From Christensenella timonensis (GTDB lineage Bacteria > Bacillota > Clostridia > Christensenellales > Christensenellaceae), in contig NZ_FLKP01000002.1 in the NCBI RefSeq assembly GCF_900087015.1, positions 372,001 through 436,000 of the forward strand: DNA of 64,000 bases. Reading direction: 5' to 3'. The position numbers and the translations under genes were made by a program. Below, in pieces: positions 55,773 through 59,007 of the stretch; the stretch's first letter is position 1, and every line of letters starts with the position of its first letter. The notes under the pieces were generated by a model that was given only the letters and a program-made list of their open reading frames with translations, was not told where the DNA came from and made no database searches.

Positions 55773-56897
55773 TCATTCCGCTTCCGCCATGACCGCATCC
55801 TGCAAATAAGGATATGGGTTCAAATAAACGCCTGACGGATGCAGGATCGCAAGGTGCAGGTGGTTGGCGGTACTGTTGCCTGTATTGCCGGCAAGCCCGA
55901 CCACATCGCCGCGCTCTACCGTATCTCCCACCGAAACAAGGTTGGATACCTCCACCATGTGGTAATAGTGGTATTGCGTACCGTCGCTGCCGCCGAGCAC
56001 CACATAATTTCCCGTTCCCTCGCCCGTTCCTACGGCGAGGATCGTACCGTCAACACAGGCGAGCTCTTCTGTGCCTTCCGGGCAGAGGATGTCCGTACCC
56101 ATATGGCGGCGGGCCCCGCCGTCGCGGTCGTCATACCAGCTGTCCACAAAATTGTAACGTTCCGGGAGCGGGAAAGTCAGCGTTTCGGAAAGCGGCGGGA
56201 GGTTTTCGTCCTCCGGTAGGATCATCTCCATTTCCTCATCATAAGCTGTGCTCAAGTAAGTGCACATAAAAAGGTCGTAAGGGATGGACGACGGATCGCT
56301 GCCATCCGTGCGCGGCAGCTCATAAAAAAGCTGTTGCGGTTTTTTTGTGGTAACTGTCAGGTCAAAAGAGGCCGAGTCCTCTGTGAAATCCTCGTTTTTT
56401 GTTATTTTGACGCGGATAAGTGACGGGAAAAGCCCGACCAGCTCCCCGGGGCTTTCGCACCCATAGGCCACAGACGATAACAGCTGCCAGGTGGGCTCGC
56501 CGATATCCGCCGTCAGGGTGACATGCGGGTAATATTCCTCATATTGCCTTTGCACAGCACAGATCGCTTCGGAAAGCCACGTATCGAAACAATCCTGAAA
56601 AGATTGCGTGACCTCTTTGTTTTCTGTGATCGCTGCATAGCCCTTTTGCTCCGTATCCGCAGGATACAGCTCCTCAGGCGTGCAATCCTTGGAAAAAGTA
56701 TGCCCTTTTATGATCTCCTCGAAGGTGGGCAGGACGGCCGGAACCGCAGGTGTGGGCGCGGCGCTTGCCTCGGGCGAAGCGGAAGGGACTGTTACGGATC
56801 CTGCCGCCGGGGCCTCCATGGTAAAAGGCACGGCACAGGCAGAAAAAGCAAAGACAGCGGCCATGACGATGATAAAAATACAGGTGTTTTTTTTCAT
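55773..56897 (-). CDS. M23 family metallopeptidase lipoprotein
   Basis: 374 residues. Signal peptide and lipobox ending FSAC at the start, a Ser/Pro/Ala linker, an N-terminal domain of about 190 residues without a name, and a LytM/M23 domain at the C-terminus with RRHMGTDIL (His-x3-Asp) and NHLHLAIL (HxH). Presumed peptidoglycan endopeptidase or regulator. The LytM sites are complete, so it is likely active. Confidence 0.88.
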   Translation of the reverse strand: MKKNTCIFIIVMAAVFAFSACAVPFTMEAPAAGSVTVPSASPEASAAPTPAVPAVLPTFEEIIKGHTFSKDCTPEELYPADTEQKGYAAITENKEVTQSFQDCFDTWLSEAICAVQRQYEEYYPHVTLTADIGEPTWQLLSSVAYGCESPGELVGLFPSLIRVKITKNEDFTEDSASFDLTVTTKKPQQLFYELPRTDGSDPSSIPYDLFMCTYLSTAYDEEMEMILPEDENLPPLSETLTFPLPERYNFVDSWYDDRDGGARRHMGTDILCPEGTEELACVDGTILAVGTGEGTGNYVVLGGSDGTQYHYYHMVEVSNLVSVGDTVERGDVVGLAGNTGNSTANHLHLAILHPSGVYLNPYPYLQDAVMAEAE

Positions 56898-56982: not shown

Positions 56983-57495
56983 TCATAATATTTGGTGCAC
57001 TGTTTCCCGGCGGAGCCGCGAGAATACAAGAGCGCACAATACCCCCATACAAAAACCGCATACGCAGCCCATCAAAGCGAGCACCGGAAGGTAATACGAT
57101 ACCTGCGGCGTTGCGGTCAGGAGCGCGGCAACGGCGAGCTGCGCAAGGCTGTGCGTCACGCCTCCCAGCACGCTGACCTTGACAAGGGACAGGCGCCGCA
57201 AAAAGAGGCACATGACCAGGATGGAGAGGAGCCCGCCCGCGAGCGAGAAGAAAAGCATGGTCAGGTTCCCGCTGAAAACGGCGGCAAGCAAACTGCGCAC
57301 GATGCAGATCGAAAAAGCGTACGGCGCGCCCAAATAGTAAAGCGCAAAGAGGGAAACGATATTGGCAAGGCCCAGCTTGAAGCCGGGCAGCGGCAGCAGG
57401 GAGGAAATCGCCCCATCCACAAGGGAGAGGGCAAGCGCCACGCCGCACAAAACGGCGGCCAGTACAAATTTTGAGGTCTTATTGGGTAATGCCAT
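56983..57495 (-). CDS. Gx transporter family protein (HepT-like)
   Basis: 170 residues with five to six helices. The motif LPLPGFKLGLANIVSLFALYYLG and the paired SLLAAVFSGN and GVTHSLAQLAVAAL are diagnostic of the Gx/heptaprenyl diphosphate synthase component I family. Such genes sit next to NusG-II and ApbE genes and are linked to quinone or flavin electron transfer. ATG 57495 has GGGAGG at nine bases; a 17-base overlap with the preceding gene exists. Confidence 0.9.
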   Translation of the reverse strand: MALPNKTSKFVLAAVLCGVALALSLVDGAISSLLPLPGFKLGLANIVSLFALYYLGAPYAFSICIVRSLLAAVFSGNLTMLFFSLAGGLLSILVMCLFLRRLSLVKVSVLGGVTHSLAQLAVAALLTATPQVSYYLPVLALMGCVCGFCMGVLCALVFSRLRRETVHQIL

Positions 57496-57844
57496 CGACA
57501 TCCGCCTCCCTGCCTGTGATCGTTGCACTCACGCCGTTTGGCGCACACACGATCGATTGTCCCGCATGGGAAATGCCCCCCGTTTTCTCACACTGGTGGT
57601 TCGGGCAGTCTGTCTGCACGATACGCACCGTGCCATCCTTTATTTCAAAAATATTTCGATAGGCGCCGGATATCCCGTATATCGTATCCTTTGACAGCGG
57701 CAGGGTAGCCATGACCTCGCCGTCCTTGCGAAACACGACCTGCGTACCGGCTTCGCGCGGCAGCGAAAAGAGCCACACCAAAAGAATCGCCGCGGCAATG
57801 ATCACAGTAAAGATGATATCGCTTTTTTTGACCAGTTTATTCAT
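57479..57844 (-). CDS. NusG domain II-containing membrane protein
   Basis: 121 residues. One N-terminal helix (about 9-30) and a small beta domain with the signature TDCPNHQCEKTGGISHAGQSIVC, in which the Cys pair is conserved. The domain is extracytoplasmic. It overlaps apbE by eight bases and the Gx gene by 17 bases, so the three are one transcript. This set is common near rnf or flavin-based electron transport genes. Confidence 0.9.
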   Translation of the reverse strand: MNKLVKKSDIIFTVIIAAAILLVWLFSLPREAGTQVVFRKDGEVMATLPLSKDTIYGISGAYRNIFEIKDGTVRIVQTDCPNHQCEKTGGISHAGQSIVCAPNGVSATITGREADVDGITQ

Positions 57845-58847
57845 GGTAATCCTTATTTGTGACGGTAAGGCCATACTTTTCGGCAAACCCGTCCGTGGTG
57901 ATGACCCGCTTATCGTCTGTCAGGAAAAGCGCGTCCACGCCCTGCTCCTGCGCAAAAGCCACGCCGCGCTCCGCCCCCATGACAAACAAGGCGGTGGAGT
58001 AAATGTCCGAGAGGATCCCGCTTGTACAGATGACTGTTACCGCCGCCAGGCCGCTTTCGGCGGGATGGCCCGTTTCTGGATCCAGGATATGGAAATAGTA
58101 TTTTCCGCCCTGCGTAAAGCCGCGCTCGTAAGTCCCGGAGGTGGAAACAAATTTTCCGTCGAGCGTGAGCTTTGCCATGTAGTCATTTTCGCCACCGAAG
58201 GGGTCGCGTATGCCTATTTTATATGCGCTGCCGTCAGGCTTTGTCCCCACGGCGTAGATACTCCCTCCCAGCGAAAGGATCGCAGAGGAAATATCATTGT
58301 CTGCGAGGTTTTGTGCAAGGCAGTCGAGCGCATAGCCTTTTACCGCGCCGCCGAGGTCGACCTGCGTGCCTCCCGCGTTGGCGACCGACTGGCCGTTTTC
58401 ATTGGCGCTGACGCTGATCGCGTTATAATCCGTATGGGCAAGCAAGCCTTCCAGCTCCTCTTCGCCCGGGACGCGCGCATTGTCCGTGCCAAAGCCCCAG
58501 GCCGCGACTACGCCGCCGAGTGCGGGATCGAAAGTACCGCCGGTCACTTTGGCCTGCTCGATACATGCCTGCAGAACCTGCGCCGTGGCATCGGAAATTT
58601 CCACATCCTGTACGTTTTGGGCATTCATCCTGCCGATATCGCTGGTGGGTATGGTTTTGGACATCTCGTTTTCGATGTCGCGCAATATTTGGTTGTTTTG
58701 CCTGACCACGCTGTTGTCGCTGGCATACACAGTCTGGGTGACGATGGTATCCATAATGAAAGATTCGCTCTGCTGTGCAACTGGCGAACACGCGCAAAGC
58801 GCGAACATGCAGGATAAGGCAAGGAGCAAGGGGATGATACGTTTCAT
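57837..58847 (-). CDS. apbE: FAD:protein FMN transferase ApbE, lipoprotein
   Basis: 336 residues. Lipobox LCAC at the N-terminus, so it is lipid-anchored outside. It attaches FMN from FAD to Thr of target flavoproteins (for example RnfG-type or FMN-binding domains). Motif DPETGHPAESGLAAV (the ApbE LDPxTG box), SLGGSIYAVG and LGGAVKGYALD are visible. The ATG overlaps the stop of a 27-residue membrane peptide by four bases (ATGA). No FMN-binding domain target is in the window. Confidence 0.94.
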   Translation of the reverse strand: MKRIIPLLLALSCMFALCACSPVAQQSESFIMDTIVTQTVYASDNSVVRQNNQILRDIENEMSKTIPTSDIGRMNAQNVQDVEISDATAQVLQACIEQAKVTGGTFDPALGGVVAAWGFGTDNARVPGEEELEGLLAHTDYNAISVSANENGQSVANAGGTQVDLGGAVKGYALDCLAQNLADNDISSAILSLGGSIYAVGTKPDGSAYKIGIRDPFGGENDYMAKLTLDGKFVSTSGTYERGFTQGGKYYFHILDPETGHPAESGLAAVTVICTSGILSDIYSTALFVMGAERGVAFAQEQGVDALFLTDDKRVITTDGFAEKYGLTVTNKDYHE

Positions 58848-58927
58848 TTGTATGATAACACCAAAAGCACGACCGCAAAAACGATAAACGGGATCAAAAA
58901 CAGCAGGCGCTTTATTCCTAACTTCAT
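58844..58927 (-). CDS. 27-residue membrane micro-protein ahead of apbE
   Basis: MKLGIKRLLFLIPFIVFAVV followed by seven more residues, ending YK. A short basic N-terminus and one long hydrophobic helix. GAGGAGA lies at the right distance upstream and its TGA overlaps the apbE ATG (ATGA), so the two are coupled. It is likely a real small membrane protein; its function is unknown. Confidence 0.7.
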   Translation of the reverse strand: MKLGIKRLLFLIPFIVFAVVLLVLSYK

Positions 58928-58978
58928 AATATCTCCTCTTTTTTATGGCTACCATGTTAGTATAACACACAAAATACA

Positions 58979-59007
58979 TTGATAAAACCGCGCTTTTATG
59001 ATATATT
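58979..59007 (+). promoter_or_regulatory. Promoter of argS
   Basis: TTGATA (58979-58984), 17-base spacer, TATATT (59002-59007), 38 bases before argS. No T-box leader is seen. Confidence 0.75.

Follow-up and report, generated by a model that had tools for sequence, protein, structure and literature searches.

Does the very short open reading frame (ORF) that precedes apbE in Christensenella timonensis encode a protein and, if so, what could a single membrane helix do at the head of such an operon? We addressed this question in a window of 64,000 nucleotides, i.e., the whole stretch of DNA that was analysed, in which the elements concerned are arranged as follows:

58959-58964, minus strand: candidate -10 box TATACT preceded by TG (extended -10), picked out by eye
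58933-58939, minus strand: Shine-Dalgarno (SD) sequence AGAGGAG of the microprotein, just 5' of its ATG (anti-SD duplex -9.1 kcal/mol)
58844-58927, minus strand: ORF of the 27-aa single-helix microprotein, stop included (27 codons in 9/9 related operons; pooled pN/pS 0.27)
58844-58847, minus strand: ATGA overlap between the microprotein stop TGA and the apbE start ATG, with no SD for apbE
57837-58847, minus strand: apbE, FAD:protein FMN transferase lipoprotein, 336 aa (PF02424, E 3.1e-78)
57479-57844, minus strand: NusG domain II membrane protein, 121 aa (PF07009, E 2.3e-24), sitting at the EetA position
about 56983-57498, minus strand: PF07456 membrane protein (Hpre_diP_synt_I/Gx, EetB family, ECF-S-like; E 4.2e-36)

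The ORF is translated as MKLGIKRLLFLIPFIVFAVVLLVLSYK, followed by the stop. The original prediction had given it a ribosome binding site of its own and an ATGA overlap with the apbE start, and had placed overlapping apbE, NusG-II and Gx genes behind it. Both descriptions hold: AGAGGAG and ATGA are found at these positions, the three genes match PF02424, PF07009 and PF07456, and they overlap by 8 nt (apbE/NusG_II) and by about 20 nt (NusG_II/Gx). We take the NusG_II protein to be the equivalent of EetA. The N-terminus of ApbE consists of a signal peptide starting at 58847, with the lipobox LCAC. An in-frame ATG further upstream would lengthen apbE to 380 aa (57837-58979, minus strand), and a gene finder could choose this form, hiding the microprotein. 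We rejected it, since the apbE frame of C. hongkongensis is closed 3 nt upstream of the short-form ATG and since the signal peptide and lipobox begin at 58847.

Several signals for the expression of the ORF can be recognized upstream of it. The TATACT at 58959-58964 was not called by a consensus promoter scan; a TGnTATANT-like site occurs at the corresponding place in several relatives. The duplex energies, computed against the canonical anti-SD, average -8.7 kcal/mol (strong) at the microprotein start and -1.6 kcal/mol (weak) at the apbE start over the nine family operons that carry both genes, and neither sequence nor duplex energy reveals an SD at apbE in any of them. The microprotein SD is strong in most of these operons, the exception being Christensenellaceae OttesenSCG-928-K19 (-2.8 kcal/mol). 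In this genome, we noticed by eye a TATACT 7 nt 5' of the microprotein ATG, and no SD (locus L007, about 1400); with a TATACT so close to the ATG, the mRNA may be leaderless. Since apbE has no SD and the microprotein has a strong one, apbE is probably translated by coupling, i.e., by termination-reinitiation after the microprotein. On the other side of the promoter region, a divergent gene, argS (named by eye), starts upstream of the operon; its promoter-like TTGATA-17-TATATT (58979-59007, plus strand) adjoins the promoter region of the microprotein operon, and the divergent promoters are closely packed.

This arrangement, with apbE lacking an SD in 9/9 operons, the ATGA overlap in all of them and, for most, an SD in front of the microprotein, favors the main rival of the accessory role that we propose below. 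The short ORF would then mainly serve to load ribosomes for the SD-less apbE, and its hydrophobic peptide might draw the ribosome to the membrane, without any later role.

The comparison covered 18 genomes of the Christensenellaceae (f1), including that of the window (G000, 2.65 Mb). The relatives include C. intestinihominis (G004), C. hongkongensis (G005) and Christensenella sp. Marseille-P2438 (G001) and, further off, OttesenSCG-928-K19 (G012), UBA5399 (G009) and a Clostridia metagenome-assembled genome (MAG, G006). All nine family genomes that have ApbE possess an ORF of exactly 27 codons with the ATGA overlap, and in the alignment of the nine peptides M1, K6, R7, F14, A18, L22 and L24 are invariant. 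In the underlying reading of loci, the minus-strand ones among L001, L009 and L011-L022 were re-read in the proper orientation, L025, L028, L029 and L030 were read once, and L010 was covered in part. When the six Christensenella genomes are pooled, pS is 0.70 and pN 0.19 in the microprotein frame (pN/pS 0.27), and the other five frames give 0.64, 2.50, 0.74, 0.37 and 3.99, the next lowest value, 0.37, belonging to an antisense frame. Within the ORF, the differences are distributed 130/45/212 over the three codon positions. Ungapped comparison within the genus gives a mean nucleotide identity of 0.68 over the ORF, 0.40 over the preceding 81 nt and 0.57 over the initial 81 nt of apbE. None of 2000 column shuffles matched the observed protein conservation, either for six or for nine sequences, although these counts are not independent tests, as the nine peptides are related sequences.

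A 27-codon ORF in nine of nine operons, together with selection on its protein frame, is more than chance, and these comparisons show the ORF at 58844-58927 (minus strand) to code for a protein and to be under purifying selection. The original prediction hinged on a short ORF being conserved at this place among related genomes; all nine related operons have one, and selection keeps its protein sequence. This bears on annotation, since a selected gene of this length is below most gene finders and the usual annotation, and an erroneous apbE start further upstream can also hide it. That the ORF is instead a chance frame, a piece of the signal peptide of apbE, or a toxin-like peptide of type I is highly improbable. 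The peptide is indeed short, hydrophobic and orphan, and its single match among the PHROG families, a weak one, is to a holin family (E 0.02). However, chance is rejected by the purifying selection (pN/pS 0.27; 0/2000 shuffles), the length of 27 codons and the overlap are fixed in nine genomes, the peptide shows by eye no resemblance to that signal peptide, and the operon always has ApbE.

The tie between this gene and its operon is strict within the family. The microprotein, ApbE, NusG_II, PF07456, FMN_bind and RnfD show an identical presence pattern, with nine genomes having them and nine lacking them out of 18; the microprotein is never found without apbE or away from it, and the coordinates show a constant apbE-NusG_II-PF07456 order in the nine operons. 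This co-occurrence rests on three genera with and two without, and it is therefore perhaps the trace of one gain or loss event. The upstream neighbor is more variable: argS is the immediate divergent neighbor in seven of the nine operons, an ORF intervenes in C. intestinihominis, and no argS is found within 3 kb upstream of the operon in the Clostridia MAG. Even with the changed neighbors of these last two genomes, the overlap with apbE is kept.

Outside the family, the picture is different. Among 291 genomes of the class, the only three matching at E <= 0.001 are Christensenella, and a survey of 80 named apbE loci retrieved the microprotein in all six from Christensenellaceae. At the apbE start of the 74 loci from outside the family, no separate short hydrophobic ORF was seen (0/74). 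Candidates preceding apbE proved to be the terminal parts of longer frames: PF07456-like ones of 177-189 aa in L094, L108, L132 and L138 (named by eye), and other long ones in L111, L113 and L136. A general clostridial feature is thus rejected (0/74 loci; 3/291 class genomes, all Christensenella). The microprotein matches no Pfam and no NCBIfam family, and its best match in the PDB (E 1.7) identifies no solved chain. Within the library consulted, our literature search returned no paper on a microprotein or small ORF at apbE, or on apbE with NusG domain II; small-protein catalogues may list the peptide.

When 297 genomes of the order were searched, the matches that came next were in five genomes of another family, f22 (E 2.5e-7 to 3.7e-5). 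The only relatives that we found are indeed the C-terminal helices of a protein of 51-56 aa in these genomes (G038, G064, G085, G103, G120), the start codons of which were chosen by us. An hhalign comparison of the microprotein with the f22 C-terminal helix gives a probability of 97.7 and an E of 1.9e-12 over 26 columns. In the reverse direction, a search of the order with the f22 profile ranks the six Christensenella microproteins (E 9e-9 to 3e-7) directly behind the f22 proteins, and a gap to 0.001 follows. This search gave a match only at E 0.004 in UBA5399 and nothing in the Clostridia MAG, and its two matches in OttesenSCG-928-K19 (E 0.001) lie within long frames on another contig and not at the microprotein. 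Mere hydrophobicity was rejected as the source of this likeness: scores of 61-64 were obtained for the six Christensenella peptides, 17166 hydrophobic windows reached 42.8 at most, and none of 3000 shuffles per peptide attained the real score. The three peptides from other genera score more weakly, being reached by 1, 1 and 15 windows and by 1, 1 and 27 of 3000 shuffles. As the scores of the genus lie beyond all controls and those of the other three do not, the evidence for homology to the f22 helix is good for the genus Christensenella and only suggestive for g2 and g5.

The f22 protein displays a conserved K...IRNP..DE.EKEF, then a KRLLF.PFIIAALIFLLLS helix, and looks tail-anchored (L041 1414-1578, plus strand; L166-L170); no Pfam (best E 0.016) or NCBIfam family matches it. 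It shares with the microprotein a C-terminal helix of the KRLLFLVPFIIAALIFFLLSLK type and differs from it by about 27 extra N-terminal residues and by its location away from apbE, in a gene of its own. This gene stands by itself in f22: its neighbor is a DtxR-like regulator or a phospholipase-like gene (by eye), and no flavin genes adjoin it. Conversely, the microprotein is absent from the four readable apbE operons of f22, out of five (the fifth being that of G064). In two of these genomes (G120 and G085), a TATAAT lies a few bases before the apbE ATG. From these distributions, the helix is portable and its tie to apbE specific to Christensenellaceae. Looking upstream of apbE in other Clostridia, as had been recommended for the original prediction, thus gave a divided answer: the peptide is there in 9/9 operons of the family, and missing from the 74 loci outside and from the four readable operons of f22.

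The f22 relatives raise the possibility that the microprotein has an unrelated cellular job, as in f22, and simply became the first gene of the family's apbE operon. The profile match to the f22 helix, reciprocal in the genome searches, and the location of the f22 genes away from apbE fit this explanation. We consider it unlikely, however, as in the Christensenellaceae the microprotein never parts from apbE, and its overlap with apbE persists where the upstream genes differ.

Conservation along the peptide follows an alpha-helical period, the best angle being 100 to 105 degrees; this signal is modest (permutation p about 0.03-0.04). It defines a conserved face formed by R7, F14, A18, L21/L22 and S25, and suggests packing on a partner. 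It is on this point that ribosome loading for apbE falls short as the sole function. A pure leader would need neither the seven invariant residues, nor selection on amino acids, nor a helical period of conservation, nor a related helix that exists elsewhere as a stand-alone protein, as in f22. We therefore disfavor it, and hold it rather unlikely that the microprotein does nothing else. A leader role in apbE translation is likely to be true in addition to an accessory role.

What the operon does can be approached through PF07456, which is the EetB family. According to the excerpts of PMC9973259, Listeria EetB binds FAD, is needed for PplA flavinylation, and has been proposed as the ECF-S subunit of an FAD exporter. 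The same excerpts report that extracellular flavin is unchanged without EetB, with targeted delivery suggested, and that loss of eetA has no phenotype. They also count 2,169 genomes with eetB near apbE and 572 with eetB near Rnf genes, the text stressing Clostridia for the latter. Multi-flavinylated RnfG in Christensenellales is the subject of a passage of PMC8238504. The C. timonensis genome contains a complete rnfCDGEAB cluster (genes assigned by eye except D and G). RnfG is the only FMN_bind protein found in this genome, its LTGATIT carrying the TGAT flavinylation motif, and RnfD has no [ST]GA[ST] motif. Given the EetB family membership of PF07456 and a complete rnf cluster with the RnfG motif, the most likely function of the operon is to provide FAD and to attach FMN to Rnf. 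The flavin link originally proposed for this gene set is thereby strengthened, and the original prediction as a whole is partly supported, the suggested subunit role staying a hypothesis. ECF-T proteins (PF02361) are present in 17 of the 18 family genomes, none being seen in the operon; OttesenSCG-928-K19 (72% complete, operon present) is without. Compared with the Listeria EET locus (fmnB (ApbE), eetA, eetB), the Christensenella operon has in common an ApbE accompanied by a PF07456 ECF-S-like FAD exporter (PMC9973259). It differs in that no fmnA, ndh2 or pplA is seen in it, and in that Rnf is its likely client. The excerpts of PMC9973259 mention no 27-aa ORF heading the Listeria locus.

We propose that the microprotein serves as an accessory of the FAD-export/ApbE module in Rnf maturation, as a single helix with its N-terminus inside; this proposal is drawn from sequence, and we give it an even chance of being right. 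From its charges, the peptide would insert N-in/C-out, with K2, K6 and R7 inside, about 18 hydrophobic residues, and a terminal K or R. It would be made together with ApbE through coupled translation, and its conserved face would pack against a membrane partner from the same operon, the likeliest being either the EetB-type FAD exporter (PF07456) or ApbE and NusG_II as a membrane-anchored pair. It could in this way assist FAD delivery and Rnf flavinylation. Single-helix accessory subunits of membrane complexes are a familiar kind, such as CydX and KdpF, to which the maturation protein NqrM can be added. Like the microprotein, they are very short, contain a membrane helix, and share an operon with a membrane enzyme or a maturation factor. 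The microprotein differs from them in having no Pfam, NCBIfam or PDB sequence match, and from NqrM in having no cysteines. Counting against an accessory role, orthologous apbE operons elsewhere do without the microprotein (0/74 loci; 4/4 readable f22 operons), and its only relatives found stand alone without flavin neighbors.

More tentatively, and with some doubt, the microprotein might be a small subunit dedicated to extracytosolic flavinylation, the first of its kind in this machinery. Its helix would dock on the EetB-type exporter, or between exporter and ApbE, and would channel or gate FAD to ApbE for Rnf maturation, being co-supplied by coupled translation. Being conserved and tied to this operon, the helix is a candidate for the specific handover of FAD to ApbE outside the membrane, and a lineage with RnfG as the only FMN_bind client offers a setting for it.

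Two minor observations concern the PF07456 gene. An M23 peptidase gene (55773-56897, minus strand) lies 85 nt downstream of it, a place taken by other genes in several relatives. Moreover, the C. timonensis genome has a second PF07456 match, below the cut-off (25.7 bits; C2:1107023-1107400, plus strand), which is perhaps another ECF-S protein.
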